Shown in pieces: positions 4,716 through 35,048 of a stretch of DNA of 64,000 nucleotides. This DNA comes from Leucobacter sp. Psy1. GTDB lineage: Bacteria > Actinomycetota > Actinomycetes > Actinomycetales > Microbacteriaceae. The stretch lies in the NCBI RefSeq assembly GCF_020096995.1, contig NZ_CP083692.1:2666001-2730000 (forward strand). The letters run 5' to 3'. A program made the translations under genes and the position numbers. The notes below the pieces were generated by a model, which searched no databases, was not told where the DNA came from, and was given only the letters and a program-made list of their open reading frames with translations. Within the stretch, counting starts at the first letter, position 1, and every line of letters begins with the position of its first letter.

Positions 4716-4747
4716 CCGACCATGGTATCGGTGGGCTCCGACATCCG

Positions 4748-5935: not shown

Positions 5936-5950
5936 CGTCGGCCCCTTCCC

Positions 5951-8171: not shown

Positions 8172-9695
8172 TTGACCCACGAACCGCTCACCCCGGAACT
8201 CGAGCGCACCGTCGCAGCCGCGGCGGCCGCGGCACCGACCTTCGCTTCCGCCGCTCCCCGCGATCGCGCCGCCGCCCTCGTCGCGGTCGCTGACGCACTC
8301 GAAGCGCACCGCGAGAGCCTGGTCGAGACGGGAGCGGCCGAGACGGGCCTCACCACCGCTCGCCTGAACGGCGAGCTCACCCGGACCGCCGTGCAGCTGC
8401 GGATGTTCGCCGACACCGCGATCGCCGGCGACGAGATCGACGCGCGCATCGACGAGGCCGACAGCGAGTACGCGCTCGGCGTGCGCCCCGACGTGCGCCG
8501 CATGCACCTCCCCCTCGGTCCGGTGCTGAACTTCGCGGCGTCGAACTTCCCGTTCGCCTTCTCAGTCGCCGGCGGAGACACGGCGGCCGCGCTCGCGGCC
8601 GGGTGCCCCGTCATCGTGAAGGCGCACTCGGGACACCCGAAACTCTCGGACGCCACAGCACAGGTGGTCAGCGATGCGCTCAGCGCTGCCGGCATGCCGG
8701 AGGGGACCTTCGGCCTCATCCACGGTCAGGAGAACGGCGTCGCCGTGCTGCAGGACCCGCGGATCAAGGCCGGAGCATTCACGGGGTCCATCGCAGCGGG
8801 CCGCCGCCTCGCAGACATCGCGGCCGCACGGCCCGCGCCGATCCCGTTCTTCGGAGAGCTCGGCAGTGTGAACCCGGTCTTCATCACCCCCGCCGCCGTC
8901 GCGGAGCGCGCCGACGAGCTCGCCTCAGGCCTTGTCACGAGCGTGTCGGGTTCTGCCGGACAGCTCTGCACCAAGCCCGGATTCGTCTTCCTGCCGGAGG
9001 GGCACGACCTCGACACTGCAATCGCGGCGGCCGCCGCGGATATCCCGGAGCACCGGATGCTCGGCCCGCGCATCGCCTCGGGGTTCGCCGACCGACGCGA
9101 TGAGATCCTCGCAGCCGATGGCGTGCGGGTGATCGCCGACGGTGGCGTCCGATTCGACGATGACGGACAGGGCTGGGTCACCGCGACCATCGTCGCCGTC
9201 TCGCTCGACGACTTCCGCCGGAACCACGAAGCACTCATCGAGGAGGCCTTCGGACCCCTCACGATCATCGTCGAGACGCCTGCGGGAACCGACCTCGCCT
9301 CGCTCCTTCCCGAGTTCTTCGCGGGGAACCTCACGGGAACGGTGCACCTGAGCGCCGAGGAGGCCGCGGGGTCGACCGACAACCGGGCAGACCTCGCCGC
9401 GCTCGTCGCAGCGCTGAGCCAGCAGGTGGGTCGCGTGCTCTTCAACGGCTGGCCGACGGGTGTCGCGGTCACCCCCGCGATGCAGCACGGCGGACCCTGG
9501 CCCGCGACGACCAACGACTCCAGCACCTCGGTGGGCAGCGCCGCGATTCAGCGGTTCGTGCGCCCCGTCGCCTACCAGAGCGCACCCGAGGCACTGCTGC
9601 CGATTGCCCTGCGCGATGACAATCCGCTCGGAGTGCCGCAGCGACGCTCCCCCGCAGGAGATTCGAAGACCTGGGGCGACGCGGCGCGACGCTGA
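8172..9695 (+). CDS. Alpha-ketoglutarate semialdehyde dehydrogenase (NADP+-type aldehyde dehydrogenase)
   Basis: The protein belongs to the aldehyde dehydrogenase branch that oxidises 2,5-dioxopentanoate to 2-oxoglutarate, the last step of hydroxyproline and some sugar-acid pathways. It has 507 residues with LGPVLNFAASNFPFAFSVAGGD near the cofactor site, the general-base glutamate in FFGELGSVNP (E229) and the catalytic cysteine in SAGQLCTKPG (C266), all typical of this class. The start is TTG at 8172, with GGAG six bases upstream; the nearby ATG at 8156 is in another frame. The gene stands alone here but shares an operator-like sequence with the hydroxyproline operon about 13 kb downstream, so hydroxyproline is the likely source of its substrate. 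A strong hairpin follows. Confidence 0.86.
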   Translation: MTHEPLTPELERTVAAAAAAAPTFASAAPRDRAAALVAVADALEAHRESLVETGAAETGLTTARLNGELTRTAVQLRMFADTAIAGDEIDARIDEADSEYALGVRPDVRRMHLPLGPVLNFAASNFPFAFSVAGGDTAAALAAGCPVIVKAHSGHPKLSDATAQVVSDALSAAGMPEGTFGLIHGQENGVAVLQDPRIKAGAFTGSIAAGRRLADIAAARPAPIPFFGELGSVNPVFITPAAVAERADELASGLVTSVSGSAGQLCTKPGFVFLPEGHDLDTAIAAAAADIPEHRMLGPRIASGFADRRDEILAADGVRVIADGGVRFDDDGQGWVTATIVAVSLDDFRRNHEALIEEAFGPLTIIVETPAGTDLASLLPEFFAGNLTGTVHLSAEEAAGSTDNRADLAALVAALSQQVGRVLFNGWPTGVAVTPAMQHGGPWPATTNDSSTSVGSAAIQRFVRPVAYQSAPEALLPIALRDDNPLGVPQRRSPAGDSKTWGDAARR

Positions 9696-9767: not shown

Positions 9768-10961
9768 TCACTCGACTCGTCGTCCAGCGAGCAGCACGGC
9801 CTCGCGCGCTTCAGGCGACCAGAGCGCCGACGGGGTGGACATCGGGTCCTGGGACAGCACGACGGCGTCTCCGTAGGCACCGGGGCGCAGGTGCCCGAGC
9901 GCACGGTCACCCAGGATCTCTGCGTTGACGACCGTCATGGCGTGCAGCGTTGCCTCTGCACCGGAGGCTTCGACCTGCAGTTGGACACCCCGGAGCTGGT
10001 CGTCTTCGAGATCTCCCATGAGGTCGCTGCCGAATCCGACTTGCACCCCGGCATCGAGCGCGATGCGGATCGCCTCCTGTCCGCGAGTGAGGACCTCCTC
10101 GTTCTTCGCGAGCGACACTTCATTGAGCCCGAGGCCCGCACCGCGGCGGCTCATCGCGTCGTATGCGGCCAGAGTCGGAACCAGGTAGGCGCTGCGCCTG
10201 GCCATCTCCCTAGCGGTCTTCCGGTCGAGCAGATTCCCGTGCTCGATGGTGCGCACCCCGTTCTCGATCGCGTGCATGATCGCCTCGGGCGAGTAGGCGT
10301 GCGCCGCAACGTAGCTCTTCCGGCGCGCAGCCTCCGCCGTCACCGTCTGCAGTTCCTCCGGCGCGTACTGCGGCACGCTCAGCGGGTCCGTGAGCGAGAA
10401 GACGCCACCCGAGGTCATCACCTTGATCGCGTGCGCTCCGGTGCGCAACCGTTCGCGGACGGCGACACGTAGCGCATCGACACCGTCGACGATCTCGCAC
10501 ATGTGCCCGTGACTGAAACAGACGTCGACGTGCTCCGAGCGCGGGTCCCCGTGTCCACCGGTCTGGCTCAGAGCGGGCCCGGTGAAGAAGTACCGCGGAG
10601 CGGTGATCACTCCGGTGTCCCTCGCGCGCAGCAGCCCGATGTCGCCTCCCGCGACATCGCGCACCGTGGTGAAGCCGCGGCGAAGCGCTTTACCGAGACG
10701 CGCAGCGCCGTTCACCGCCGCAAAACTCAGCGGTCCGCGTTCATTCTCGAACCCGTCCATGCTCGTGGCGTAGGCGTGGAAGTGGTTGTCGATGAGTCCT
10801 GGAAGCACCCAGAAGCCCCGACCGTCGAACGACTCGGCACCGGGGTCCGGCGCATCCGCGACGATCCCGTCGACGATGTGCAGGTCACGCAAGGAGAATC
10901 CCACCTCGTTCCCGTCCCACACTCGCGCCTGACGGATCGTGATCGAGCGGTCTGATTTCAT
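9768..10961 (-). CDS. Metal-dependent amidohydrolase (imidazolonepropionase/prolidase-like)
   Basis: A 397-residue cytosolic hydrolase of the amidohydrolase superfamily. It shows the metal-binding N-terminal motif PGLIDNHFHAY, a probable carboxylated lysine in HAIKVMTSGG, further histidines in YVAAHAYS and TIEHGNLL, and the aspartate in VGFGSDLMGD. This set is typical of the group annotated as Xaa-Pro dipeptidases or imidazolonepropionase-like hydrolases, whose substrates vary. The ATG at 10961 is chosen because CCAGGAG lies just upstream; the frame is open further but without similarity. It is the last gene of the hyu operon, 76 bp after hyuB with a strong hairpin between. I infer that it cuts the ring-opened product of HyuAB or a related amide. 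The exact substrate cannot be read from sequence. Confidence 0.85.
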   Translation of the reverse strand: MKSDRSITIRQARVWDGNEVGFSLRDLHIVDGIVADAPDPGAESFDGRGFWVLPGLIDNHFHAYATSMDGFENERGPLSFAAVNGAARLGKALRRGFTTVRDVAGGDIGLLRARDTGVITAPRYFFTGPALSQTGGHGDPRSEHVDVCFSHGHMCEIVDGVDALRVAVRERLRTGAHAIKVMTSGGVFSLTDPLSVPQYAPEELQTVTAEAARRKSYVAAHAYSPEAIMHAIENGVRTIEHGNLLDRKTAREMARRSAYLVPTLAAYDAMSRRGAGLGLNEVSLAKNEEVLTRGQEAIRIALDAGVQVGFGSDLMGDLEDDQLRGVQLQVEASGAEATLHAMTVVNAEILGDRALGHLRPGAYGDAVVLSQDPMSTPSALWSPEAREAVLLAGRRVE

Positions 10962-10999
10962 GTCTGCACTCCTGGGGTTCATCCGATATTGCCGAGAGA

Positions 11000-11032
11000 T
11001 GCGGCCGGAGCGGAGTTCGCGCTCCGGCCGCA
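11000..11032. terminator. Strong intercistronic hairpin between hyuB and the amidohydrolase
   Basis: A perfect 13-bp inverted repeat (11000-11012 with 11020-11032, arm TGCGGCCGGAGCG) with a 7-base loop lies six bases after the hyuB stop. No T-tract follows on the minus strand. It could attenuate transcription into the amidohydrolase gene or protect the upstream mRNA from 3' decay. Confidence 0.6.
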
Positions 11033-11037
11033 CGGTT

Positions 11038-12741
11038 CTAGCCGCGCAGCTGCGCTGTCTCCGCTTCGTCGATCGTGTAGTCGGGGCGGACCGCGACGCC
11101 GTAGTCGCTTCGTGCCGCAAGCGCGGAGACGAAGCCGTTGCGGACGTCCCTGGCCACCGCCGCGGGGTCGCGATCGAACGGATTTCCGTACCCGCCGCCG
11201 CCACCGGTCTGATTCACCAGGACCTCGCCTGCGTCCAACTGGTTGTAGCTCCCGCCCTGCACGACCTCGCGCGGAGTGCCGGGGTTGAGGACGACGCGGT
11301 TCGGGCTCCCCTCGAGACCACCATCGATCGACCACGGACTCGTCCGGGTCTTGTAGACCAGGCAGATCCCGGTGGCCGGTGCGGTGAACCTATACGTGCG
11401 GCTCACTCCGACACCTCCGCGGAATCGACCGGCGCCTCCGGTATCCGGACGGTACCCGTAGTGGTCGATGATCATCGAGGACTTTGCTTCGAGGACCTCG
11501 ACCGGGTTGTTCCGGCAGCCCGGCTCCGAGAGATGCATGATGCCGTCCTCGCCGTCATGCGTCGCGGAGCCGCCGTAGCCCACCGCCTCATTGGTGGCTT
11601 CCTGCCAGAAGTCCCCCGTGCGAGGGTTTACGCCGAGACCCATCATTGAGCAGACGTCTCCGCCAGAGCAGGCCGGCACGCGATCGGGCATCCCCTGGGC
11701 CAGCGCTTTCAGAATGACTTCGCCTGCGAGAAGTCCTGTCCAGAGGGTGAACGTCGGCATCGGTTCGACGGCGTGCATCACCGAACCGGGTACCGTTACG
11801 ACCCTCAGAGGAGCGAAGTTGCCGGCTACAACGGGCGAATCGGGGGTCGTGAGCGATTTGAAGATGAGGCTCGACAGCGCTTCCGTCTGTCCGGGCGGAA
11901 GGTTGATCGGTCCGCGGACGTTCTCTGCGCTCCCCGTCCAGTCGACAATCATCTCGTCATCGGTCACCGTGACGGTGCAGTGCATCTTGACGAGCGTGTC
12001 CAGGTCAATCCCGTCGTGATCGAGATAGTCGGTCGCCGACCAGGATCCGCGCGGAAGTTTCGCGAGCGCAAGGCGCGCGAGCCGTTCGCCGTGCTCGTTG
12101 ATGGTCCGCATCGACTCGCCGAGGGTCTCCACACCGTATTTCTCGGCGAGCTCCTGCGTCCGCTTCACGCCGGTGACGCAGGCGGACACCTGCGCCTGAA
12201 TATCGCCGATCGTGTGCTTCGGGGTCCGGCTGTTGAACCTGATGATGTTGAAGACGTCCGCGTTCCGCTCGCCGCGTCGATACAGCTTCGAGGCGGGCAT
12301 CACCAACCCTTCCTGCGCCTTATCCGTGGAGTCGAGAACGTACCCGGGATCTTTCTGATTCAAGTCCGTGATGTGGACACGGCACGAGGCGAAGCCGATC
12401 AGCTGCCCGTCGAAATGAATCGGGGCGAACACCAGCGGATCAAGCGTGTGAGCGCTCGACCAGTAGGGGTGATTGATGATGAACACGTCACCCGCCTCCA
12501 TAGAGTCCGCTCCGAGGAATTCGATGGAGTGTTTGATTCCGGCGTCGTTCCCCCTCGTGAACACGGCGATTCCCGGCGCATCCGCCACCACGTCGCCGTT
12601 CGCGTCGTGAATGCCGATGCCGTAGTCGTGAATCTCGTACACGACCGTGTTGTAGGCGGTGCGGCAGAGATTTCTGGCGATCTCCTCAGCGGCCGCGAGC
12701 AGACCGTGTCGGATGATCTCGGTGGTGATTGCATCAGCCAT
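11038..12741 (-). CDS. hyuB: Hydantoinase/oxoprolinase subunit B
   Basis: Partner of HyuA in ATP-dependent opening of five-membered cyclic amides (N-methylhydantoinase, 5-oxoprolinase and relatives). The 567 residues match the normal B-subunit length. It begins with ITTEIIRHGLLAAAEEIARNL, a typical HyuB start, and contains GDVFIINHPYWSSAHTLD, a GSAENVRGPINLP region and the C-terminal stretch GGAGRFRGGVGVSRTY ending in GGGGGYGNPFDRDP. It starts two bases after the hyuA stop, with AAAGGGG in the end of hyuA. That tight coupling fits a stoichiometric complex. Family assignment is certain; the true substrate (hydantoin, oxoproline, creatinine-type compound or other) is unknown. Confidence 0.92.
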   Translation of the reverse strand: MADAITTEIIRHGLLAAAEEIARNLCRTAYNTVVYEIHDYGIGIHDANGDVVADAPGIAVFTRGNDAGIKHSIEFLGADSMEAGDVFIINHPYWSSAHTLDPLVFAPIHFDGQLIGFASCRVHITDLNQKDPGYVLDSTDKAQEGLVMPASKLYRRGERNADVFNIIRFNSRTPKHTIGDIQAQVSACVTGVKRTQELAEKYGVETLGESMRTINEHGERLARLALAKLPRGSWSATDYLDHDGIDLDTLVKMHCTVTVTDDEMIVDWTGSAENVRGPINLPPGQTEALSSLIFKSLTTPDSPVVAGNFAPLRVVTVPGSVMHAVEPMPTFTLWTGLLAGEVILKALAQGMPDRVPACSGGDVCSMMGLGVNPRTGDFWQEATNEAVGYGGSATHDGEDGIMHLSEPGCRNNPVEVLEAKSSMIIDHYGYRPDTGGAGRFRGGVGVSRTYRFTAPATGICLVYKTRTSPWSIDGGLEGSPNRVVLNPGTPREVVQGGSYNQLDAGEVLVNQTGGGGGYGNPFDRDPAAVARDVRNGFVSALAARSDYGVAVRPDYTIDEAETAQLRG

Positions 12742-12743
12742 GT

Positions 12744-14792
12744 TCAGGCCCCTTTCGTCGCGGTCTGGATAGAAATGCTGAGTTCGCCATAGCTCCCGAC
12801 CCGTAAGCGATCGCCTGCGTGGAGAACCGTCGTCGCCGTGTGCTCCGTGATGACGGCGGGACCATCAACCGTGTCACCGGCGCGCAGGTCCTCGCGCGCG
12901 ATCAGCGCGTAATCGACAGCCGTATCTCCCGGCTGCATCACGGTGCGGCGACCCCTGGGGTAATCGTCACCCGGGCGACGTTTGTCGGCGAACGGAAGAT
13001 CGGGCTTGCTCACCTTTCCCACTGCGTTGAGCCGGAGCGTCGTCGTCTCGATGGGGTCGTCCATCGTGTGCCCGTACTGACGCTGATGGAGCCGGTCGAA
13101 TTGCTCCCTGATGGCAGCGCGCGGGTCTCCCTGACCACTCGGGAAATCGATCGTCACGGCGTGTTCCTGGCCCGAATAGCGAACCGACACGACCCTCCGG
13201 AACTCCATCTGGCCAGGTGAGAATCCTTCCGCTTTCAAGGTCTCAGTCGCTTCCGCTTCCATTCCGGCGAAGAGTTCGTGGACGGCCTGCGAGTCGAGGT
13301 CGTCGAGCGGCTGAATGCTCGTGCGAGAGGAGTCGTGCTGCACATCGGCCATGAGCATGCCGAGCGCCGAGAACGCGCCCTGCCCTGGGGGCACGATCAC
13401 CTCGGGAATGCCCAGCTCACGGGCGACATCAACGGCGACCAAGCCCCCTCCGCCTCCGAATGAGAGCAGCGCGAAGTCCTGCGGGTCGTGCCCCAGCTCG
13501 ATCGTGATCGCGCGCACGGCTCCCATGATCTTCGTGTTCGAGATCTGGATCATCCCCCTGGCGAGCTCGGTGACCGAGAGGCCCAGCTGCTCGGCGATGG
13601 GCGCGAGCGCGGTGATCGAACGGTCGCGGTCGAGGGTGAGCTCGCCTCCCAGCGGCGTATCCGCACCCAGATACCCGATCGCCAGCGCGGCGTCGGTGAA
13701 CGTCGGCTGCGTTCCGCCGCGGCCGTATGCGGCAGGACCGGGCAGCGCACCGGCGCTTTTGGGCCCGACCTGCAGGGCACCAGCGTCGTCCAGATAGCCG
13801 AGTGAACCCCCGCCTGCCCCGATCGTGTGGATATAGAGGGAGGGCGTGTTGATCGGCAATCCCTCGAATTCCGCCCCGTGGTATCGCACCGGCTCACCCT
13901 CGAGCACCAGTGAGGCATCGAGACTTGTACCCCCCATGTCGATGGTGATCAGGTTCGGACGGTCGATGAGCTTCGCGAACGCCGCTGCGCCGACGACTCC
14001 GCCCGCTGGCCCTGAAAGGATGAGATTTACCGGCTGCTCCCGAGCAGCGGAGGCGGTCATCGCGCCCCCTCCCGATCTCGACATGAGGAACCGCCCATCA
14101 AAGCCGCGTTTCGCGAGTTCGTCCTCCAGTGCGCGGAGGTAGCTGCGCATGATGGGCTTGATATAGGCATCGAGCACGGCCGTGCTCGTCCGTTCGTATT
14201 CGCGGTATTCGCGGGACAACTCGTGAGACAGCGTCACTTCGACGTTCGGCGCTTCCTCTTCGAGGATCTCGCGCATGCGACGCTCATGTGCCGGGTTCGC
14301 GTACGAGTGGAGGAATCCGACGGCCACGGCGGTGTAGCCGCGGTGCGCGATCTCACGGGCGACTTCACGAGCATCGGCGTCGTCGAATGGCGTGACGACG
14401 CTACCGGAGACCGAACTCCGCTCCGTGACCTCGAAGGTGTCGTATCGTTCGAGTAGCGGCTCGGGTTTGCGATAGGAGAAGTCGTACATGACCTTCCGGT
14501 CGGTCCGGCCGAGCAGGTACACGTCACGGAAGCCGCGCGTCGCGATCGTCGCGATCCTCGCCCCGGACCGCGTCAGAAGCGAGTTGAGGCCGAGCGTACT
14601 GCCGTGGTTGAACGTGGTGACGGTCGCGAGATCGGCATCCGCCTTCTCGAACGCGGCAAGCACCCCGGAGGTCGGCTCATCCGGAGTAGTGGGGACTTTT
14701 TCGAAGCGAAGTTCGCCGGTCTCCGGCACCAGTTTCACCACATCGGTGAATGTGCCGCCGACATCAATGGCGATGCGAACGTTTTCGGGCAT
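12744..14792 (-). CDS. hyuA: Hydantoinase/oxoprolinase subunit A
   Basis: ATP-dependent subunit of the HyuAB ring-opening enzyme; it has an actin-like ATPase fold and should phosphorylate the cyclic amide. The 682-residue protein has IAIDVGGTFTDVVKLV at the N-terminus (Hydant_A_N domain, about 5-180). The Hydantoinase_A core (about 200-490) contains LSGPAGGVVGAAAFA, ITIDMGGTSLDASLV and TIGAGGGSLGYLD, and a C-terminal domain follows. All nucleotide-binding glycine loops appear intact, in contrast to the diverged relative at 18870. It lies 60 bp after the permease gene and directly before hyuB in the same minus-strand operon. Confidence 0.94.
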   Translation of the reverse strand: MPENVRIAIDVGGTFTDVVKLVPETGELRFEKVPTTPDEPTSGVLAAFEKADADLATVTTFNHGSTLGLNSLLTRSGARIATIATRGFRDVYLLGRTDRKVMYDFSYRKPEPLLERYDTFEVTERSSVSGSVVTPFDDADAREVAREIAHRGYTAVAVGFLHSYANPAHERRMREILEEEAPNVEVTLSHELSREYREYERTSTAVLDAYIKPIMRSYLRALEDELAKRGFDGRFLMSRSGGGAMTASAAREQPVNLILSGPAGGVVGAAAFAKLIDRPNLITIDMGGTSLDASLVLEGEPVRYHGAEFEGLPINTPSLYIHTIGAGGGSLGYLDDAGALQVGPKSAGALPGPAAYGRGGTQPTFTDAALAIGYLGADTPLGGELTLDRDRSITALAPIAEQLGLSVTELARGMIQISNTKIMGAVRAITIELGHDPQDFALLSFGGGGGLVAVDVARELGIPEVIVPPGQGAFSALGMLMADVQHDSSRTSIQPLDDLDSQAVHELFAGMEAEATETLKAEGFSPGQMEFRRVVSVRYSGQEHAVTIDFPSGQGDPRAAIREQFDRLHQRQYGHTMDDPIETTTLRLNAVGKVSKPDLPFADKRRPGDDYPRGRRTVMQPGDTAVDYALIAREDLRAGDTVDGPAVITEHTATTVLHAGDRLRVGSYGELSISIQTATKGA

Positions 14793-14852
14793 GCGAGGGA
14801 TTCCTTTCCCATAGTGGTCGAGATGTGAGGTGACGGGTCGGCGCTGATGCGC

Positions 14853-15836
14853 TCAGCGTCTCGTCCGGTCCGCGGCGGCAAGTCCCACCGCAGCGAGGAT
14901 GATGAAACCCGTCACCATGTCCTTGAGCTGGGGGTTCAAATTCAGTAGGTCGAATCCGTTGCCGATGAGCGCGATCAGGAACACGCCCGCAACCGACCTC
15001 CACACCGCTCCGACTCCGCCGTAGATGCTGGTGCCGCCCAGAATGACGGCGGCGATCGCACTGAGCTCGAGCCCCGCCCCCGCCAGGGGCTGACCTGAAG
15101 CGATACGCGAGACGCCGATCGCGGCGGCGCTCCCTGCCGCGAGGCCGCTCAGCATGAAGACGATCACGCGGGTCCGATTCACCCTGATCCCCGAGAGCTC
15201 GGCGGCTTCGGCGTTGCCGCCGACGGCGTAGACGTGACGCCCGAACACCGACCTCGAGAGGAGAAACCACATTCCCGCGACGACGACGATCATGACGATC
15301 ACTGCGATGAAGATGCCGCCGATACGATCGCGGCCGAGAGCGGTGAAACCCGGAGTCGTGACGGTGATCAAGCTTCCCCCGGTGACCAGTACCGCGACCG
15401 TCGTGAAGATCATCGATGACGCGAGCGTCGCAAGGAATGAGTGCACTCGTAAGCGAGTGATCACCGCGCCGTTGAACGCCCCGAGAACAAGTCCGATCAC
15501 CGGTGCGGCGAGCAGCGCGAGCCAGGGGTTCCCCAGCGTCACTGCGAGCCAGGCCGCGACGACGCCGGCGACACTGTAGATCGCGCCGGTGGAGAGGTCG
15601 AAGTTCCCCGAGACGATGACGAAGGTGCCCGCGGAGGCGATGATCACCAGCGGCGCGTTCTGGTTGAGGATGTTCACGATGTTCGCAAACGTGAAGAAGG
15701 ATGGTGAGAGCAAGGCGAGCGCAGCGATCACTGCGAGCAGCAGAATGACGACAGCGTACTCGATCACCAGGTCGCGTGCGGAGAGCTTTCGGCGGGCCCG
15801 CATCTCGGTCACTGTGGTGTTGACGGCCTCGCTCAT
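14853..15836 (-). CDS. Ribose-type ABC transporter permease
   Basis: Inner-membrane channel of an RbsC/BPD_transp_2-family importer, 327 residues with about ten hydrophobic segments. It shows the family loops FANIVNILNQNAPLVIIA, GNFDLSTGAIYSVAG, YAVGGNAEAAELSGIRV and AIAAVILGGTSIYGGVGAVW. Its ATG overlaps the ATPase stop by four bases. Transporters of this family carry sugars, but some carry nucleosides and other ring compounds. Here, next to hyuAB, a heterocyclic amide is a reasonable inferred substrate. Confidence 0.92.
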   Translation of the reverse strand: MSEAVNTTVTEMRARRKLSARDLVIEYAVVILLLAVIAALALLSPSFFTFANIVNILNQNAPLVIIASAGTFVIVSGNFDLSTGAIYSVAGVVAAWLAVTLGNPWLALLAAPVIGLVLGAFNGAVITRLRVHSFLATLASSMIFTTVAVLVTGGSLITVTTPGFTALGRDRIGGIFIAVIVMIVVVAGMWFLLSRSVFGRHVYAVGGNAEAAELSGIRVNRTRVIVFMLSGLAAGSAAAIGVSRIASGQPLAGAGLELSAIAAVILGGTSIYGGVGAVWRSVAGVFLIALIGNGFDLLNLNPQLKDMVTGFIILAAVGLAAADRTRR

Positions 15837-17392
15837 GCTGCGGGCTCCTCTCCGGTGGTCACGTGGAAAAGCCGGAACAGCACCTGCTCCACGGTGGTGT
15901 GTCGGGGGTCAATTTCGTCGAAGGTCCGTCCCCCTGCGACGAGGTAGGCGCGATGCGCGAGCTCCATGACCTCCTCGTGCTCCGATGAGATCAGCACGAC
16001 CGCGATACCTTCGGCTGCGAGGTGCGCGATGAGCTCGTAGATCGTGCGTTTCGCCCCGACGTCGACGCCTCGAGTGGGCTCGTCGAGGACGATGAGCCTC
16101 GGTCGCGCGGCGAGCGCCTTGCCGAGGAGCGCCTTCTGCTGATTTCCTCCCGAGAACCAGCTGACTGGCAATTCGATGTCGAGCGGTCTCATCTCCATCG
16201 CCCTGGCGTGCTCGAGTGCGGTCTCCCGTTCACGGGAGCGCTGAACGACACCCATGCGTGAGCGAGCACCGAGGCTCGCGAGGGCAATGTTCTCGCGCAC
16301 CGATCGTTGCAGGATGAGGCCGTCTCGATGTCGGTCCTCGGAGGCGAAGACGAACCCGGCCTCGATGGACCGCTTCGGGGATGCCGAGGTCCAGTCCTTC
16401 CCATCGAACACGACCGACCCGCCGAGCACGGGATCGATACCGAAGACGGCGCGGAGGCACTCGGTGCGCCCGCTGCCGACGAGGCCGAGGAGGCCGACGA
16501 TCTCGCCGGGTCGCACCTCGAACGACATGTCCTCGACGCCCGTCCGGGTGCGAAGGTGATCGACCCGCAGAATCGGCGGCTGCGCCTGGGCGGGCCCCGC
16601 GGCGCGCTCGGGGTACGCCTGATCCATCTCCCGCCCCAGCATCGCCGTGACCAGGTCGTGTTTGGTGACCGCGGCCGCTGCAACGGTGTCGATTCGCCGC
16701 CCGTCACGCATGACGGTAATGCGGTCTGCCACTTCGAGCACTGAATCGAGGAAGTGTGAGACGTAGATGACGCAACAGCCGCGATCGCGCAGAAGCCGCA
16801 TGAGGTCTTCGAGCTGGCGCATCTCGTGGGCGGTGAGGGAGGAGGTTGGCTCGTCCATCACGATCACTCGCGCGTCGCGGGCGAGCGACCGGAGGATCTC
16901 GACCTTCTGCTGATCGGCGATGCGGAGATCGCGCACGTGGGTGCGACCATCGATGCCAAACCCGATATCCGCGTCCAAGCGTCGGTAACGGTCGAGCACG
17001 TTGCCGCGCTCGATGCCCCAACGGTGTTCTTCCGCCCCGAGGAAGACGTTCTGGGCGACCGTCAGATCCGGGACGAGCGCAAGTTCCTGGGCAATCATGG
17101 CGACCCCTCTGCGCTGGGCGGTTCCCGGGTCCCACCGTCCGACGGATGCGCCATCCACGAGGAGTTCCCCCTGGTCAGCTGAGTACACCCCGGCGATGAC
17201 CTTCCCGAGCGTGGACTTGCCTGCGCCGTTCTCACCGACGAAGGCGTGGATCTCTCCTCGGCGTACGGTGAGCGAAACATTGCTCAGCGCCTGCGTGGCC
17301 CCGAAGCGCTTGCCGATTCCGCGGAGCTCGACAGCGTCGACCTCGGAAGCCGCGCGCGTCGACGGGATCTCTTGATCAGCCATTCCACTCAC
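15833..17392 (-). CDS. Ribose-type ABC transporter ATPase (two nucleotide-binding domains)
   Basis: A 519-residue RbsA/MglA-type ATPase that powers import through the neighbouring permease. The first ABC domain has Walker A GENGAGKST and Walker B VIVMDEPTSSL. The second has the altered P-loop GLVGSGRTE, signature SGGNQQKALLGKALA and LIVLDEPTRGVDVGAK. Unequal domains are normal in this family. Its start lies inside the end of the binding-protein gene (17-bp overlap) and its stop overlaps the permease start, so the three transporter genes are translationally coupled. Confidence 0.93.
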   Translation of the reverse strand: MSGMADQEIPSTRAASEVDAVELRGIGKRFGATQALSNVSLTVRRGEIHAFVGENGAGKSTLGKVIAGVYSADQGELLVDGASVGRWDPGTAQRRGVAMIAQELALVPDLTVAQNVFLGAEEHRWGIERGNVLDRYRRLDADIGFGIDGRTHVRDLRIADQQKVEILRSLARDARVIVMDEPTSSLTAHEMRQLEDLMRLLRDRGCCVIYVSHFLDSVLEVADRITVMRDGRRIDTVAAAAVTKHDLVTAMLGREMDQAYPERAAGPAQAQPPILRVDHLRTRTGVEDMSFEVRPGEIVGLLGLVGSGRTECLRAVFGIDPVLGGSVVFDGKDWTSASPKRSIEAGFVFASEDRHRDGLILQRSVRENIALASLGARSRMGVVQRSRERETALEHARAMEMRPLDIELPVSWFSGGNQQKALLGKALAARPRLIVLDEPTRGVDVGAKRTIYELIAHLAAEGIAVVLISSEHEEVMELAHRAYLVAGGRTFDEIDPRHTTVEQVLFRLFHVTTGEEPAA

Positions 17393-18404
17393 CCGTGAAC
17401 TCGGGCGCGGCCTCCAGGTCGTCTCGCGTGACGATGGGGCCGAGATCGACCAGCGAGTCCGCGTCGATCACCGCAGTGACGTTCTCTCCCCTGATCGCAG
17501 CTACGGCCTGCTCCAGTGCGGCCTCACCCATGCTGACCGGGAAGTTCAGGTAGTCGTTCGTCCACAGGCCGTCCCGGACCGCCTGGACGGCCTCCGTGGT
17601 CCCGCCGCCTCCGGTGAGGAAGACGGATGCGGGATCAATACCGGCATTCTCGAGGGCGATCTGGGCGCCGAGCGTCTGCTGATCGGCATTGCTCAGGATG
17701 CCGCTGATGTCCGGGTTGCCCTGCAGCAGATTCGACACGGCCGACAGGGACTGATCCCGGTCGTACGCGCCCTCGACGGTCCCGACGATCTCGATGTTGT
17801 CGTGTCCGCCGAGCACCGTCTCCCAGGCTTCGATCCGCTCGATGTCGAGCGGGGAGTTGAGGAGGCCGGCGAGCAGTCCGATCTTGCACGGGTCGATGTC
17901 TGCGCAGTAGTCGACCACCGATTCCGCTTGCGCGGTCGCACCGACGGCTGGGGGTGTCGCGATGGTCGAGACGACGCCGTCGACCTGGGGCTCCATCTCG
18001 GAGATGTCCGGGCCGATCGGGTTGAGCACCGTGACGACGGGAATGTCGCTGCCGAGCGGGAATGCTGCGCCCAGGCCCGGTCCGTCGTGCGGAACCACGA
18101 CGACGCCGTCGGCCTGACCGGTCGTTCCCACGTTCTGCAGCTGGGAGAGCTGGGTGTTCGCGTCGAACTGGCCGTCCTGGATCTTGGTGTTGATGGTGAT
18201 GCCGAGCTCCTCGGAGAGCTCGGCCGCCCGCTGCTCGATTCCGGTGTTCACGGCCTGGTTGTAGCCGTTCTGCGAAGAGGAGGCGAGCAGGACTATGGTG
18301 AGGGATTCTCCGTCGCCGCCCGTTCCATCTGAGCTGCACGCGACGAACACGGTGGAGAGCGCGATGGCTCCCACTCCGGCGAGGGTACGAGTGATGCGCT
18401 TCAT
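17376..18404 (-). CDS. Ribose-type ABC transporter substrate-binding lipoprotein
   Basis: A 342-residue periplasmic-binding-protein-like lipoprotein (Peripla_BP_4 family) that would capture the transported compound outside the membrane. The signal peptide is MKRITRTLAGVGAIALSTV followed by a lipobox ending in cysteine 23. The mature protein shows the two-lobed family pattern, with QADGVVVVPHDG and GILSNADQQTLGAQIALENAG. The ATG at 18404 has only a weak AGAAAG site, 26 bases after the ABM gene stop. Ligand type is not predictable from the fold; the hyuAB context points to a cyclic amide or a purine/pyrimidine-derived ring. Confidence 0.9.
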   Translation of the reverse strand: MKRITRTLAGVGAIALSTVFVACSSDGTGGDGESLTIVLLASSSQNGYNQAVNTGIEQRAAELSEELGITINTKIQDGQFDANTQLSQLQNVGTTGQADGVVVVPHDGPGLGAAFPLGSDIPVVTVLNPIGPDISEMEPQVDGVVSTIATPPAVGATAQAESVVDYCADIDPCKIGLLAGLLNSPLDIERIEAWETVLGGHDNIEIVGTVEGAYDRDQSLSAVSNLLQGNPDISGILSNADQQTLGAQIALENAGIDPASVFLTGGGGTTEAVQAVRDGLWTNDYLNFPVSMGEAALEQAVAAIRGENVTAVIDADSLVDLGPIVTRDDLEAAPEFTGEWNG

Positions 18405-18430
18405 TGCAATCTACTTTCTGAGTGGCGGGG

Positions 18431-18748
18431 TCAGGGAGTGGTCGTGACAGCGTGGTCGATCCGGAAGAGGCGGGCAGCGCCGATCTCGGCGTCGCCCAGC
18501 AGCATCCGAAGCTCGGGACCGATTCGGTCGCGGCGCGGATGGTCCAACCACTCCTGATACGCCCCCTCGTCCGGCCATACTGCGGACACGAGGATCTCGT
18601 GCGAGCCATCGGTCGCGACCGAGATCTCCGATGAGATCGCCCGGGTGAGATCGAGGGATTCCTGAAGGATGTGCTCGGCGCGGTACAGGCCGAGCACGGC
18701 GGCACTGTCCTCCCTGAGCGGGTGCAGGGTCAAAAGGCTTCGAATCAT
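18431..18748 (-). CDS. Small ABM-domain protein (antibiotic biosynthesis monooxygenase-like)
   Basis: A 105-residue protein with the dimeric alpha/beta-barrel ABM pattern: an N-terminal strand (MIRSLLTLHPL), helices, then EILVSAVWPDEGAYQEWLDH near the middle. ABM proteins include cofactor-free monooxygenases, isomerases and proteins of unknown role, so no reaction can be assigned. The ATG at 18748 has GGAG ten bases upstream; the longer open frame crosses the regulatory region and is unlikely. It is the first gene of the hyu/ABC operon, next to the divergent promoters. Its presence suggests an oxidation or tautomerisation step in the pathway, which is inference. Confidence 0.7.
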   Translation of the reverse strand: MIRSLLTLHPLREDSAAVLGLYRAEHILQESLDLTRAISSEISVATDGSHEILVSAVWPDEGAYQEWLDHPRRDRIGPELRMLLGDAEIGAARLFRIDHAVTTTP

Positions 18749-18826
18749 GTGGTTCGTACTCCGTCGTCTGGCCAACATCGCTCTGAGCGAGCGCAGACTG
18801 AACATACCTCGCACGTACTCCCCGGC

Positions 18827-18843
18827 ATTGTGCATTGTGCACA
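18827..18843. promoter_or_regulatory. Candidate operator in the divergent hyu control region (distal site)
   Basis: Two tandem ATTGTGC units (18827-18833 and 18834-18840) merge into the palindrome TGTGCACA (18836-18843). The site lies upstream of a -10-like TATGTT for the minus-strand operon (18801-18806), the position expected for an activator. It shares TGTGCACA with the proximal site at 18860. I infer that the PucR regulator encoded at 21226 binds it. Confidence 0.5.
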
Positions 18844-18857
18844 GGCCAGGGACGAAG

Positions 18858-18869
18858 TAATGTGCACAT
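18858..18869 (+). promoter_or_regulatory. Leaderless promoter with overlapping palindromic operator
   Basis: TAATGT (18858-18863) ends six bases before the ATG at 18870, the usual layout of an actinobacterial leaderless promoter. The 10-bp perfect palindrome ATGTGCACAT (18860-18869) covers the -10 element and the expected transcription start. A protein bound here would block the plus-strand operon, including the regulator gene. Confidence 0.55.
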
Positions 18870-20150
18870 ATGCGAGTGGGTGTCGCGTTGTGGCCGAATT
18901 CCGTGACGTGCGGGTGGATGTCGCCGGACGGAAACCGCACCGCCAGCGGTGAGCCCGAGCCTCACGATGGTCGGGATTCCACTCTGCGTGCCGCGCTGCG
19001 ACGGGCCCTCTCTACCGTGTCGGAACGATGTGGGGAAGTCGCCGGCGAGCCCACGTCGATCGTGTTCGACGCAAGCCCTCTGCTTGATCTGAGCGTCCGA
19101 CCCACCACCACACTCATCCGAATCGCACCACGGCCACCACTCGACGCGCAGCACGAGGAGGAGATCTCCCCCGAGGCCACCCGCGTCGTTCACGTTCGCG
19201 GCGGTCACACTGCGCTGGGGGAAGAGCTGGTCCCGCTCGACACCGACGCTCTCCGCTCGGTGGCCGTAACCGCGGCCGCCGGCGAGCGCTTCGTGATCAC
19301 CGGCGCCGGCTCCGTGGTGAACGCCGAGCATGAACGACGCGCGGGAGAGATTCTGCTGGAGCACGCCGAACCGGCGGGCATCGAATACGGGCACGCCTTC
19401 CCCGCGAGTTCTTTCACTCTGCGCGAGGCCACCGCACTCGCGAACAGTTCGCTCCTCACCCAAGCCGTCGCGCTCGGCACGAATCTGGCCCTTGCAGCAG
19501 AGGACATCGCTCCCGATGCACGGATGTACGTCGCGACGAACGACGGGGGATGCACCCCTCTGGCCCGCCTGTCGAGCGCTCCGGTCCACTCCGCCATCTC
19601 GGGCCAGGCCACTGAACTGGTGGGTGCTGCCGCACTCTGCGGCGTTCGCGACGGACGCGTCATCGTCGCAGACACGGACGGCGAGGCGCTCGGAGAGTTC
19701 GTCTCTGGCGTGCCGACGGTCGTCGCCGGCCCATCGCGCGCGCACGGCCTCGATCTCGCGATCCGCAGCGCGCACGTGCTCCCCGCTTCCGAGGAGCACG
19801 TCTCCGGCAGAGCCGAACGCCCGGTGCTGCTCGCGCGGGGTGGCATCGATCCAGGGTTCATCGGGCTCGACGCCCGCGTACATCTCGATGAGGATCTCCG
19901 CGCGATCGGTGCAGGTCGCCTCCCCCTCACCGAGTGGGAGGAACGCACCCTGAGCGTCGCCAGCGCGTCGGAAATGAATCAGGAAGTGGAGACCGCGGAG
20001 GCACGGGTACGCGCACGACTAGTTTCGTTCGGCGCCGCCCCCTCCGAGGTCCGCATCCACGAGTCGCGAGTCATCGCCACGGCCTACGAGCTTCCCCGCG
20101 TCGTTTCCGTCCGGGTGCGGGGCGTCGCGTTCAGGGCGGGGACCGCATGA
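18870..20150 (+). CDS. Diverged hydantoinase/oxoprolinase A-like protein
   Basis: A 426-residue relative of the HyuA actin-fold family, shorter than HyuA (682) and clearly diverged. The position of the HyuA DVGGTFTD loop reads VALWPNSVTCGWMSPDG, so the first phosphate-binding loop is lost. Later family-like stretches remain (EEISPEATRVVHVRGG, AGHAFPAS-type region, LLARGGIDPGFIG). Such proteins commonly sit beside DUF917 genes, as here. The ATG follows a leaderless promoter with an overlapping operator. Its stop overlaps the DUF917 start (ATGA). It may be a non-ATPase partner of the DUF917 protein; catalytic competence is doubtful because the glycine loop is missing. Confidence 0.72.
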   Translation: MRVGVALWPNSVTCGWMSPDGNRTASGEPEPHDGRDSTLRAALRRALSTVSERCGEVAGEPTSIVFDASPLLDLSVRPTTTLIRIAPRPPLDAQHEEEISPEATRVVHVRGGHTALGEELVPLDTDALRSVAVTAAAGERFVITGAGSVVNAEHERRAGEILLEHAEPAGIEYGHAFPASSFTLREATALANSSLLTQAVALGTNLALAAEDIAPDARMYVATNDGGCTPLARLSSAPVHSAISGQATELVGAAALCGVRDGRVIVADTDGEALGEFVSGVPTVVAGPSRAHGLDLAIRSAHVLPASEEHVSGRAERPVLLARGGIDPGFIGLDARVHLDEDLRAIGAGRLPLTEWEERTLSVASASEMNQEVETAEARVRARLVSFGAAPSEVRIHESRVIATAYELPRVVSVRVRGVAFRAGTA

Positions 20151-21223
20151 GACTCAGTACCGATGAAATCCAGCATCTCAGGACAGGTGCGATGTTCCTC
20201 GCCTGCTGCCCGGACCCCGAGTGGTGCGACGAGCAGACCGCGCGCATCGTGTCGTACATGGCCAGATCCGGCGAATCGCCCGACCTCGTCGAGGTGACGG
20301 ATCTCCCTGCAGATGCGCTCGTCGTTTCACTGGGCTATGTGAACAACGGACTGCCGCTCTCCGACCTCCGTCCAGTCGGCGACGAGTTCTCGACCAGCCT
20401 CGAACTCGTCGAAGATGCCCTCGGTCAGAAGGTCTCCGGCATCATGCCCCTGGCCGGCGCGAACATCAATGCACTGGTCCCGGCCATGACCGCTCTCCAG
20501 CTCGGCATCCCAGTGGTCGACGCCGACCCGATGGGCCGAGTGTTCCCGCTGCTCTACCAGTCCGTGTTCACTTTGGCCGGCCTCCCCGCCGGGCCGGTCG
20601 GCGCGACGGGTCCGAACGGCGAATCCGCGCTGCTCGATGTCGAGAACCCGCTGCGAGCGGAACGCCTCGTCCGCGCACTTGCCGGAGAGTTCGGCGGATG
20701 GTCGGCGACCGCGCTGTATCCGATGACCGCCCGGCTCCTCCACGAGCACGGAATTCTCGGGAGCGTTTCGCGAATGATTCGCATTGGACGCGTGCTGAAT
20801 GCGGCGATCTCGGTTCCGGAGAAGCATGCCGAGCTGCGGCGGGCCGAGGGAGTGCGGCGTATCATCCGAGCACGAGTGAGCGACACCGCCGGGATCTCCC
20901 GCCCCGCCCCGCCCGGGCAGCCGGACAACCCGTCGACCGTCGTCCTCATCGAGGAGAGCCAGGGACGGATCGTCCAGATCGAAATTCAGAACGAGTTGTT
21001 GCTCCTGCTCGTCGACGGAGATGTCATCGCGGCCGTGCCGGACATCATCACCATGCTCCGCCCGGAGGACGGAAGCGTGGCGAGCCTCAATGATCTCTGG
21101 GTCGGGAACCAACTCGACATCGTCGTCCTCCCCGCACCGGCCCAGTGGTATGCGCCCGCCGCAGTCGATCTCGTGGGTCCCGCCGCGCTGCACGTGTGGT
21201 TGCAGACCCGTGGAAGGAAATAA
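20147..21223 (+). CDS. DUF917 (S-methyl-thiohydantoin desulfurase-like) family protein
   Basis: A 358-residue member of the DUF917 family, Pfam S-Me-THD N- and C-terminal domains. The match rests on the N-terminal start, the middle segment SGIMPLAGANINALVPAMTA, IPVVDADPMGRVFPLLYQSVF and the C-terminal WVGNQLDIVVLPAPAQWY...VGPAAL. The typical N-terminal GTGGGG loop is replaced by LRTGAMFLACCPD, so this member is atypical. The ATG at 20147 overlaps the preceding stop; an upstream open frame belongs to the overlap. Members often neighbour hydantoinase genes and are linked to processing of hydantoin-like rings, but most are uncharacterised. It sits between the HyuA-like gene and the PucR regulator. 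Confidence 0.78.
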   Translation: MRLSTDEIQHLRTGAMFLACCPDPEWCDEQTARIVSYMARSGESPDLVEVTDLPADALVVSLGYVNNGLPLSDLRPVGDEFSTSLELVEDALGQKVSGIMPLAGANINALVPAMTALQLGIPVVDADPMGRVFPLLYQSVFTLAGLPAGPVGATGPNGESALLDVENPLRAERLVRALAGEFGGWSATALYPMTARLLHEHGILGSVSRMIRIGRVLNAAISVPEKHAELRRAEGVRRIIRARVSDTAGISRPAPPGQPDNPSTVVLIEESQGRIVQIEIQNELLLLLVDGDVIAAVPDIITMLRPEDGSVASLNDLWVGNQLDIVVLPAPAQWYAPAAVDLVGPAALHVWLQTRGRK

Positions 21224-21225
21224 GC

Positions 21226-22716
21226 GTGTCACTCACCGGAACCGTGCTCCTCAGAGACCTCGCGGGCTCGCATGAACTTCGCGGTCTGGATGTTCTGCAT
21301 CTAGCCTCGCCGATGAGCCCGGTCCGCGACCTCGCACTGCTCACCGATGTCGAGGAGATCGCCACGGTCGGGCCGGACACAGTCGTGCTGCTCACGCGCG
21401 AGGTCGCACGCGGAGGGTGGGTGATCTCGGCCGCGCTCCGCTACGCCTGGGAGCGGAAGGCATGCGCACTGATCGTGCCGCAGCAGAGCACGACCCGCAC
21501 GGTGCGAGAGCTCGCGGAGCGCTTGGACGTGTCGCTGCTCACGACGAACGAGAACATGACGAAACTCGCGATCGACATGGCGATGCAGATCGGCGTCGCC
21601 CGCGCGGGAGTGCTCTCACGGGTGCAGTCGTTCAGCGAGCGGATCTCGAGGGAAACCACGCTCGACGGCGCTCTCGACTGCGTGTCGATCGAGCTCGCCG
21701 GTGCCGGCGTCGCGATTGAGACCGCTGGCACGACGGTGTTTCACCGAGGGGTGCTTTCGACGCTCGCGGACGCCTCGGAGATCGGCCGGGGAACGCGCAT
21801 AGTGGTCCCGCTCGGACTTGGCAGCGCACCGGGAGACGCGCTGGTCGCCACCGTCGCCGGTGTCGCGGAGGCCAACGCCAGACACGTCCTCGAGACCGCC
21901 GGCCCGCACGTGCGCGCGCTCCTCGCGGAGACGCGGCTCCGCGCTCTGCAGGCAGCGCTCCCCGTCATGTCCTATTCGACGCTGACCGGCACTCACCTGG
22001 GCCGCGGGTTCGACGCTCCGCCGGTGGACTCCGCAACGGGGACGGCCCCCTGGCCGCTTGGCGGCCGCTACATCGCGATCTGCCTCCTCGCCGACGATGT
22101 CGACCGAGCCGCACCGGCGGTGCACCACCTGTGGACCGAGCGTTTCGAAAGCCTCCCCCTCTCCCGCTTTTCGGAGGGGTGGGTTGGGTGTGTCCCGGTG
22201 ACCGGGGACGGGGACCGCGCGCGCCTGATAGCGGACATCAGCAGACGGATCGCCCATGCGTCTCCCCGGCTCGCGATGATCGGGGTCTCCCGCGAACGTG
22301 AGACCGCGGAGGAGGCACCAGCGGCGATCCGTGAGGCCTGGCTCGCCGCCCGCCTCGCCGATCCCGAGGGCCCGATTCCGATCGTGGACTTCGAAAGACT
22401 CCACGAGCATCTGCTCAGCAGACTGCTCCCAGAGGACTTCGCCGCCCACTGCGCCGCGGTGCTCTTCCCTCGACTCGTTGCCGATGACCAGGCCAGGGAG
22501 CTCATCGCGGCGGTCGTCGCCTACCTCGAGTGCTGCGGTTCGGTCACCCGAGCAGCGGAGCGGATCGGCGTACACCGGAACACCCTCCAGAGCCGCCTCC
22601 AGCGGGCGGAGGGCCTGGGAGTAGCGCTCGCAAGCGCATCGGATCTGCTGGACACCTTCATGCTTCTCGCATCATTGCATCGCTCGGCACTTCGCAGCCC
22701 GGAATCTACCCGCTGA
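21226..22716 (+). CDS. PucR-family transcriptional regulator
   Basis: A 496-residue regulator. The N-terminal purine-catabolism-regulator-like domain (about 1-125) contains VLLRDLAGSHELRGL and LLTREVARGGWVISAALRYA. A GAF-like middle follows, and the C-terminal HTH_30 domain has SVTRAAERIGVHRNTLQSRL (about 445-464). The GTG start has GGAAGG eight bases upstream, two bases after the DUF917 stop. Family members control purine, hydantoin or amino-acid catabolic genes. It is the last gene of the plus-strand operon and the only regulator between the two hyu operons, so it is the likely reader of the TGTGCACA sites and would autoregulate. Confidence 0.88.
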   Translation: MSLTGTVLLRDLAGSHELRGLDVLHLASPMSPVRDLALLTDVEEIATVGPDTVVLLTREVARGGWVISAALRYAWERKACALIVPQQSTTRTVRELAERLDVSLLTTNENMTKLAIDMAMQIGVARAGVLSRVQSFSERISRETTLDGALDCVSIELAGAGVAIETAGTTVFHRGVLSTLADASEIGRGTRIVVPLGLGSAPGDALVATVAGVAEANARHVLETAGPHVRALLAETRLRALQAALPVMSYSTLTGTHLGRGFDAPPVDSATGTAPWPLGGRYIAICLLADDVDRAAPAVHHLWTERFESLPLSRFSEGWVGCVPVTGDGDRARLIADISRRIAHASPRLAMIGVSRERETAEEAPAAIREAWLAARLADPEGPIPIVDFERLHEHLLSRLLPEDFAAHCAAVLFPRLVADDQARELIAAVVAYLECCGSVTRAAERIGVHRNTLQSRLQRAEGLGVALASASDLLDTFMLLASLHRSALRSPESTR

Positions 22717-23729: not shown

Positions 23730-23850
23730 AGCCGCGCGAGTAGCGTGGGGTGCGACAGTCCGGCACCGACTATCGCGCCTCACGCACTCCCTGCCTTTCC
23801 CGCTGCGGAGCCACCCGCACGCTTCCCACACGAACACACCCAGGAGCACC

Positions 23851-25817: not shown

Positions 25818-25843
25818 CGCCGCCAGAACTCAGGAGGAATCCA

Positions 25844-30079: not shown

Positions 30080-30168
30080 GATCTGAGCGGCCGTCGGCCT
30101 GGCCGAGCTCGGCCGCCTCCTCCAGACCGCAGATGCGCCCGCTCACATCGGACGAATACACTTTCAGC

Positions 30169-33674: not shown

Positions 33675-33707
33675 GCCGTTGGGCGCGCGGCCACGGCGCT
33701 CGCCTAC
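33671..33707. terminator. Inverted repeat between convergent cydC-like and glycosyltransferase genes
   Basis: GTAGGC (33671-33676) and GCCTAC (33702-33707) flank the 29-bp gap between two convergent genes. A competing inner hairpin GGCCG/CGGCC (33674-33678 with 33688-33692) is also possible. There is no T-tract. A two-way terminator is plausible from position. Confidence 0.4.
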
Positions 33708-35005: not shown

Positions 35006-35033
35006 CACACCCTCCCCCGGGCGTTGAATTGGG

Positions 35034-35048
35034 TAGATACTTGATCTA
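35034..35048. promoter_or_regulatory. Candidate TetR operator between glycosyltransferase and tetR
   Basis: TAGATACTTGATCTA, an inverted repeat TAGAT-N5-ATCTA in the 102-bp divergent region. Its AT-rich composition stands out from the surroundings. Control of both divergent genes by the adjacent TetR protein is the usual arrangement. Confidence 0.5.

Follow-up and report, generated by a model that had tools for sequence, protein, structure and literature searches.

A gene island of Leucobacter sp. Psy1 predicted to degrade hydroxyproline-containing cyclic dipeptides through a HyuA/HyuB-type enzyme

Cyclic dipeptides are abundant in nature, in food and in microbial signalling. Among the two-subunit enzymes of the HyuA/HyuB superfamily, which open cyclic amides, the closest described systems are N-methylhydantoinase, the caprolactamase CapAB and 5-oxoprolinase, while trans-4-hydroxyproline (Hyp) is converted by bacteria to alpha-ketoglutarate by an epimerase, a three-part D-hydroxyproline dehydrogenase, a DapA-type deaminase and an alpha-ketoglutaric-semialdehyde (KGSA) dehydrogenase. 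Genes of both kinds stand together in Leucobacter sp. Psy1, whose genome is a single contig of 3.25 Mb. The window analysed here is a 64,000-nucleotide stretch of that contig (NZ_CP083692.1, positions 2,666,001 to 2,730,000), and positions 9768–22716 of it hold an island of ten genes, in which seven minus-strand genes (for an ABC importer, HyuA, HyuB and an amidohydrolase, among others) diverge from a plus-strand trio encoding a HyuA-like protein (sHyuA), a DUF917 protein and a PucR-type regulator. The HyuA and HyuB of the island, termed type I below, resemble the described enzymes in their two-subunit form, in their full-length Hydant_A_N plus Hydantoinase_A and Hydantoinase_B domains and in both DxGGT ATP motifs, which are kept in the window and in 65/65 full-length HyuA open reading frames (ORFs; some loci overlapping); they differ in being linked to Hyp genes and to a prolidase-like enzyme. 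The known Hyp catabolic gene set borders the island on both sides (8172–9695 and 22824–29635), and what sets it apart from described Hyp systems is its connection to a cyclic-amide module, through which the route would be supplied from outside. It is proposed, with a probability of roughly 0.6, that the island serves the uptake and degradation of cyclic dipeptides containing Hyp, and probably also proline; that the substrate is, more broadly, some cyclic amide that yields Hyp is very probable. Every substrate named here is predicted from gene identity, linkage and residue conservation, which are observed.

The proposal follows from the chemistry of the ring. A cyclo(Xaa-Hyp) molecule has one amide N–H (Hyp-CO-NH-Xaa), its other bond being a tertiary imide on the Hyp ring nitrogen. 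Members of the superfamily are expected to phosphorylate the lactim tautomer of their substrate, as stated for caprolactamase in a passage of PMC6061476, so that only the N–H amide would be open to HyuA. The imide bond would remain in the linear Xaa-Hyp product and, being a poor target for ordinary peptidases, would need a prolidase; the partner enzyme and the downstream pathway actually found are thus those that the ring chemistry leads one to expect. In the proposed pathway cyclo(Xaa-Hyp/Pro) would enter through the ribose-type ABC importer; HyuA, by chemistry established for its family, would phosphorylate the sole enolisable N–H amide and HyuB would finish the hydrolysis to linear Xaa-Hyp; the COG1228 amidohydrolase, judging from its family and its residues, would cut Xaa-Hyp and free Hyp; and the Hyp, going by the homology of the flanking genes, would be epimerised, oxidised by the three-part D-Hyp dehydrogenase and deaminated by the DapA-type enzyme, with an aldehyde dehydrogenase step giving alpha-ketoglutarate.

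The right-hand Hyp genes begin 107 bases past the PucR stop codon on the same strand, and an epimerase with both catalytic cysteines, D-Hyp dehydrogenase parts, a DapA-type deaminase and a probable KGSA dehydrogenase are found together (Table 1). The epimerase scores below the cut-off of its model, so that its specificity for 4-hydroxyproline is probable, and the aldehyde dehydrogenase at 8172–9695 matches NCBIfam aldehyde dehydrogenase models, including AlphKGSA and 2,5-dioxovalerate dehydrogenase, all far below cut-off. Elsewhere (L numbers denote comparison loci, G numbers genomes) the Hyp genes form a self-standing run, in L088–L091, L098 and L101–L103, with a homologue of the aldehyde dehydrogenase at the end of the run, and homologues of the DapA-type gene travel with them. 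A second relative of the proline racemases, 34–38% identical to the epimerase, lies beside or near the amidohydrolase gene in L109, L110, L111, L092 and L094; both cysteines are kept where checked, and its best model is trans-3-hydroxyproline dehydratase, below cut-off.

The association of HyuA with the epimerase extends well beyond the window. Type I HyuA is taken as the orthologues of the window protein, at E of at most 1e-220 in the module-bearing and class-wide samples and, for the family list, at an identity of 67% or more. In the family sample (150 genomes, taken as the same set across counts, as the handles agree) it is present in 6, and the epimerase accompanies it in 6/6 compared with 27/144 of the others (Fisher 7.7e-5). 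The comparison of 50 DUF917-clade genomes, based on 50 loci (the 53 named ones minus L041, L071 and L086), gave 17 with type I HyuA, and the epimerase was present in 17/17 of these against 14/33 of the rest (Fisher 2.7e-5), the 14 having it at an identity of at least 60% and 2 more at 38–43% only. With the three type I genomes that a class-wide sample (n=394) added besides that of the window, the type I genomes number 25 (one genome stands under both G085 and G151 and is counted once; identity was checked for that pair only), and the epimerase is present in all of them. The starts of HyuA and the epimerase lie 7–16 kb apart on one contig in 9/25 (8/24 without the window), namely G000, G033, G154, G155, G161, G163, G164, G218 and G395, which make up the genomes linked within 20 kb. 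As a control, 19 family genomes with other HyuA types only were searched; the epimerase was present in 3, and none of these had it on the HyuA contig at a distance of 200 kb or less.

These counts bear on the earlier, sequence-only reading of the island, which did not mention the flanking Hyp genes and proposed that an importer brings in a hydantoin-like compound, that HyuAB opens it with ATP and that the amidohydrolase acts afterwards. The sequence of import, ATP-dependent opening and a later amidohydrolase step is consistent with the present results; the hydantoin-like substrate is not supported, as the neighbours and the amidohydrolase point to one that yields Hyp, most simply Hyp/Pro cyclic dipeptides. 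An ordinary hydantoin or purine-type ring, with the proximity of the Hyp genes incidental, would suit the hydantoinase family, the PucR regulator and the hydantoin racemase neighbours of a second HyuAB type (type II, below), but the epimerase in 25/25 type I genomes, the linkage in several arrangements and the absence of linkage in the control (0/19) make this the least probable of the substrates considered.

Hyp genes also stand beside the module in L039, L040, L046, L047, L049 and L050 (Leucobacter/Actinomycetota), in Arthrobacter L069 and in G033, and the arrangements vary. They follow the PucR gene in the window, L039, L040 and L049, diverge from a HyuA of the second type in L046, L047 and L050, and come after the amidohydrolase gene and two further ORFs in Arthrobacter L069/L098. 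In G033 (L099, L021) the order is GntR, DAO, flavoprotein, DapA, epimerase, KGSA dehydrogenase, ABM, substrate-binding protein (SBP), ATPase, permease, HyuA, HyuB and amidohydrolase, unidirectional save for one ORF on the opposite strand. Genomes G218 and G395 (L121, L122), which belong to another family, have Hyp genes, importer, HyuA, HyuB and amidohydrolase as one locus with no trio there, the Hyp genes and importer sharing a strand and HyuA-HyuB-amidohydrolase lying opposite, and in G192 and G193 (L114, L118) relatives of the importer, DapA and GntR genes lie beside type I HyuA-HyuB-amidohydrolase. In many type I loci the HyuA, HyuB and amidohydrolase genes form a single run, which argues against HyuAB opening a Hyp-derived lactam, such as hydroxylated 5-oxoproline, as a side branch of Hyp metabolism with the amidohydrolase handling unrelated Hyp dipeptides. 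Such a lactam would account for the Hyp linkage and would draw on 5-oxoprolinase chemistry, the prototype of the family, but its product would also bypass the epimerase route, and it is considered very improbable.

The amidohydrolase is a probable prolidase or Xaa-Hyp dipeptidase, an assignment drawn from structural matches and conserved residues. Its best solved relatives are 3feq/3n2c (1.3e-79; entries named putative amidohydrolase and prolidase) and 3mkv (3e-74); the next PDB entry follows at 1.2e-42, with arginine carboxypeptidase, ochratoxinase and imidazolonepropionase entries later. The first two are the Sgx9260 prolidases (Sgx9260b/c), which cut Xaa-Pro and N-acyl-Pro and in which a His and a Tyr contact the substrate; on this characterisation the closest solved relatives are prolidases, one of the two entries bearing that name. 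Like these COG1228 enzymes, the island protein keeps the metal site and the substrate residues: among 41 homologues (ORFs >370 aa and >300 bits) the first HxH His, the metal-site Lys, His and Asp, the GGHGD His and the HAYS Tyr are kept in 41/41 and the second HxH His in 40/41. It differs from them in sitting in an operon with HyuAB, and its activity is predicted. A look-up in 38 genomes chosen by hand gave a match in 33. In four Microbacterium genomes (G150, G152, G153 and G165) the module lacks the amidohydrolase but has the nine other genes, and the sole orthologue found in each (69–71% identity) lies 1.6–2.4 kb from the epimerase, adjoining the Hyp genes, which gives the enzyme its own separate tie to hydroxyproline. 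In L119 and L120 a prolidase-like gene is paired with an ABM-like gene, L119 adding an AstE/AspA-type deacylase and a BPD_transp_1/SBP_bac_6 importer, and in L065 (Arthrobacter sp. Hiyo8) HyuA and the amidohydrolase are each split over two ORFs, so this copy is broken or the sequence erroneous.

A number of observations weigh against cyclic dipeptides as the substrate. Prolidases of this group also cut N-acyl-prolines, so N-carbamoyl-Hyp would do as a substrate of the amidohydrolase; a bicyclic hydantoin of proline or Hyp (or another N-acyl-type cyclic derivative), opened by HyuAB to N-carbamoyl-Hyp and decarbamoylated to Hyp, would fit all the Hyp-linkage evidence equally. The nearest solved relative of HyuA and HyuB is N-methylhydantoinase, whose substrate too joins a substituted ring nitrogen to an N–H amide, and a hydantoin racemase gene accompanies type II HyuAB in 13/53 named loci. 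Hyp hydantoins are, however, not known as abundant natural compounds, and genes of a peptide-related kind recur, namely an M17 leucyl-aminopeptidase-type gene in 9/53 named loci and, in L020, an oligopeptide-type ABC importer that replaces the ribose type beside type I HyuAB; these hints favour cyclic dipeptides and the bicyclic hydantoin appears improbable. Type II HyuAB is mostly not near Hyp genes, and in several Arthrobacter loci it stands with a hydantoin racemase and a major facilitator superfamily (MFS) transporter, a setting that fits hydantoins or diketopiperazines (DKPs) equally. The epimerase is not within 20 kb of HyuA in 16/25 type I genomes, some assemblies being fragmented, and genome kinship makes the p-values optimistic (1e-5 to 7e-5 when collapsed to 4 arrangements in about 12 genera, a rough count), so the gene arrangements weigh more. 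Scores stay below the NCBIfam equivalog cut-offs for HyuAB (CapA 486/1000, CapB 217.5/1000, ApcC 296.7/1500), for the amidohydrolase (Xaa-Pro dipeptidase 194.1/500) and for the epimerase (357.8/376); with those for caprolactamase, acetophenone carboxylase, S-methyl thiohydantoin desulfurase and Xaa-Pro dipeptidase unreached, no function is inherited by name. Locus L020 is without the amidohydrolase, and its genome (G064) carries that gene on a different contig, at a distance of 21 kb from the epimerase; L119 and L120 have second prolidase-like genes without HyuAB; the SBP is of a sugar-binding class; and cyclo(Pro-Tyr) was cut by none of the strains that PMC3852281 examined.

The plus-strand trio is a separable, strongly conserved accessory. 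Assignment of sHyuA to the HyuA family is weak by Pfam (residues 103–165) and firm by profile comparison, hhalign against the 520-aa HyuA partners of DUF917 proteins giving a probability of 99.9 and E 4e-34 over 426 columns. The sequence-only reading was right that the DxGGT loop is missing from sHyuA and the GTGGGG loop from DUF917, and both losses hold for most of the clade: DxG[GS]T is kept in 0/48 distinct HyuA-like ORFs (from the window, L016, L018 and 45/53 named loci, the rest having no ORF above the score limit), and among 57 clade DUF917 ORFs GxGGG occurs in 2 and any GGGG in 4, of which three have over-long N-terminal ends and L081 a partial Gly loop. The window DUF917 protein has S-Me-THD_N and S-Me-THD_C domains and keeps the whole fold, and the pocket motif DxDxMGRxFP is present in 55/57. 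It had been stated that DUF917 proteins are mostly uncharacterised; Pfam and NCBIfam now name the family after S-methyl thiohydantoin desulfurase, the window member scoring far below both NCBIfam equivalog cut-offs (57.9/450 and 52/440). Compared with the described desulfurase and its 520-aa HyuA-like partner, the island pair has lost the Gly loop and the ATP motifs of the partner. In L020 an ordinary 520-aa HyuA partner and a DUF917 protein stand in place of the degenerate pair, and the HyuA-like test of the gene table also flagged this partner, so that the test alone cannot separate degenerate from ordinary forms.

The HyuA-like and DUF917 genes are co-conserved across actinobacteria of several families, nearly always beside a PucR-type regulator. 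In the window regulator the PucR-family HTH_30 domain is found at the C-terminus, and the PucR N-terminal domain (PF07905) gave no match up to E 5, although the search filters drop weak matches. The likeliest role of the trio, put forward tentatively, is that of a regulatory sensor, in which two enzyme relatives that have lost their catalytic loops would bind the cyclic dipeptide and switch PucR; a sensor had been among the earlier suggestions for the pair and is consistent with the evidence. The retained fold and pocket motif, together with the partial Gly loop in the deep member L081, would also suit a second, ATP-independent enzyme that opens or isomerises the ring, but with the ATP motif of the partner gone throughout (0/48), type I HyuAB without an adjoining trio in L019, L021, L121 and L122, and no DUF917 match in genome G395, a catalytic pair is rather unlikely. 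If the sensor reading holds, a retired ring-opening complex would have become the signal receptor for a pathway whose live HyuAB does the chemistry, and it would be unusual for a metabolite sensor to arise from a co-degenerate pair of this kind.

The co-occurrence of the ten genes, which had been suggested as a check, is borne out by tblastn with fixed score limits over 58 comparison loci: all ten are together in 7 others (L016, L036, L039, L040, L047, L049 and L050), and in 4 more (L035, L037, L038 and L051) the amidohydrolase alone is missing from the set. The unit of importer, HyuAB and amidohydrolase is found without an adjoining trio in L019, L021, L121 and L122, and the trio is also found with type II HyuAB, so the ten genes are two separable modules. 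Counts over the 53 named loci come from a gene table limited by 10-kb flanks and short contigs. A trio with type II HyuA, an Asp/Glu/hydantoin racemase and an MFS transporter is seen in L057–L063, L066–L068, L075–L076 and L086, and a 151-aa protein without a Pfam match (L060:20560-21015 and relatives) is encoded in 25/53 loci, mostly those with type II HyuAB.

All ten genes claimed by the sequence-only reading are confirmed in position and strand, with Pfam support for HyuA, HyuB, the amidohydrolase, the ribose-type importer, DUF917 and the regulator. The minus-strand genes are transcribed in the order ABM-like, SBP, double ATPase, permease, HyuA, HyuB and amidohydrolase with short gaps or overlaps, HyuB starting 2 bases past HyuA and the ATPase and permease genes overlapping by 4 bases. 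On the plus strand, sHyuA is followed by DUF917, which probably begins with the ATG at position 20147, within the sHyuA stop codon (ATGA, a 4-base overlap), and by the regulator, which starts 2 bases past the DUF917 stop. The 121-base gap between the divergent operons (18749–18869) holds TGTGCACA palindromes at 18836 and 18861; there are no others in the window, and they are not kept in relatives. The ABM label is weak, L082 alone (9e-8) among three homologues tried passing the cut-off, and an ABM-like gene is present in 11/53 named loci. The SBP is far from ribose-binding proteins, with a best PDB match of 2.4e-14. Among named copies of the window DUF917 gene, the closest are in Microbacterium and Leucobacter. 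To the left, a dnaX-type clamp-loader gene, acetate kinase and phosphotransacetylase (1986–8068) show that the island adjoins core genes; beyond the right-hand Hyp genes lie an ABC-type protein with ABC_membrane and ABC_tran domains (29800–31929) and, after it, a 1024-aa ORF without a Pfam match (31970–35044).

Table 1. Genes of the island and of the bordering Hyp set, in window coordinates.
Feature	Coordinates	Strand	Evidence
Aldehyde dehydrogenase, probable KGSA dehydrogenase (last Hyp step)	8172-9695	+	Aldedh 7e-41
Amidohydrolase COG1228, probable prolidase / Xaa-Hyp dipeptidase	9768 to ~10961 or 10982	-	PDB matches, residues
HyuB, hydantoinase B/oxoprolinase subunit	11038-12741	-	Pfam 9.9e-152; PDB N-methylhydantoinase 2.2e-78
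HyuA type I, ATP-dependent cyclic-amide activating subunit	12744-14792	-	Hydantoinase_A 5.5e-90; Hydant_A_N 2.2e-49; PDB N-methylhydantoinase 7.2e-115
ABC importer permease, ribose type	14853-15836	-	BPD_transp_2 3.3e-41
ABC importer double ATPase	15833-17392	-	ABC_tran, two stretches; AraG/xylose-type models below cut-offs
Lipoprotein-like SBP	17376-18404	-	Peripla_BP_4 3.3e-37
ABM-like small protein	18431-18748	-	ABM E 0.0038, below cut-off
sHyuA, HyuA-like without ATP motifs	18870-20150	+	Pfam 4.5e-6; hhalign 99.9
DUF917 / S-Me-THD-like, Gly loop lost	20147-21223	+	S-Me-THD_N 3.6e-27; S-Me-THD_C 5.3e-34
PucR/CdaR-type transcription regulator	21226-22716	+	HTH_30 4e-12; GGDEF_2 3e-8
DapA superfamily, probable pyrroline-4-hydroxy-2-carboxylate deaminase	22824-23729	+	dapA model 150 bits, cut-off 206
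Proline racemase family, probable 4-hydroxyproline epimerase	23851-24858	+	Pro_racemase 4.6e-131; PRK13971 4HypE 357.8 bits, cut-off 376
OCD/mu-crystallin reductase, pyrroline-2-carboxylate type	24855-25817	+	Pfam 1.8e-35; best NCBIfam 152 bits, cut-off 322
GntR-FCD regulator, true start probably later	25661-26557	+	FCD 1.5e-26; GntR 1e-13
FAD oxidoreductase, probable D-Hyp dehydrogenase subunit	26554-27768	+	DAO 1.1e-78
2Fe-2S protein ORF, true start probably near 27765	27561-28139	+	Fer2_4 3.7e-26
Pyr_redox_2 flavoprotein, probable D-Hyp dehydrogenase subunit	28136-29635	+	6.7e-19

Every part of the island belongs to a known family, and no paper joining HyuAB to hydroxyproline catabolism was found in the literature searched. 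DKP-degrading isolates of the Microbacteriaceae have been reported, their degrading enzymes being called unclear in a 2013 study (PMC3852281), and a passage of PMC6061476 suggests that lactamase or cyclic dipeptide hydrolase genes may lie behind many 5-oxoprolinase annotations. According to a section of PMC11055893, DUF917 and hydantoin racemase genes are enriched near cyclodipeptide oxidases, and the oxidase clusters without a cyclodipeptide synthase resemble the loci described here in having hydantoin racemase, DUF917, peptidases and ABC peptide importers; that section does not mention HyuAB or Hyp genes.

Read as proposed, the island would be a complete, testable route from a Hyp-containing cyclic dipeptide to central metabolism. 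The pathway would account for the association of a prolidase-like enzyme with HyuAB, and the island may offer a handle on the large set of genes annotated ‘hydantoinase/oxoprolinase’.

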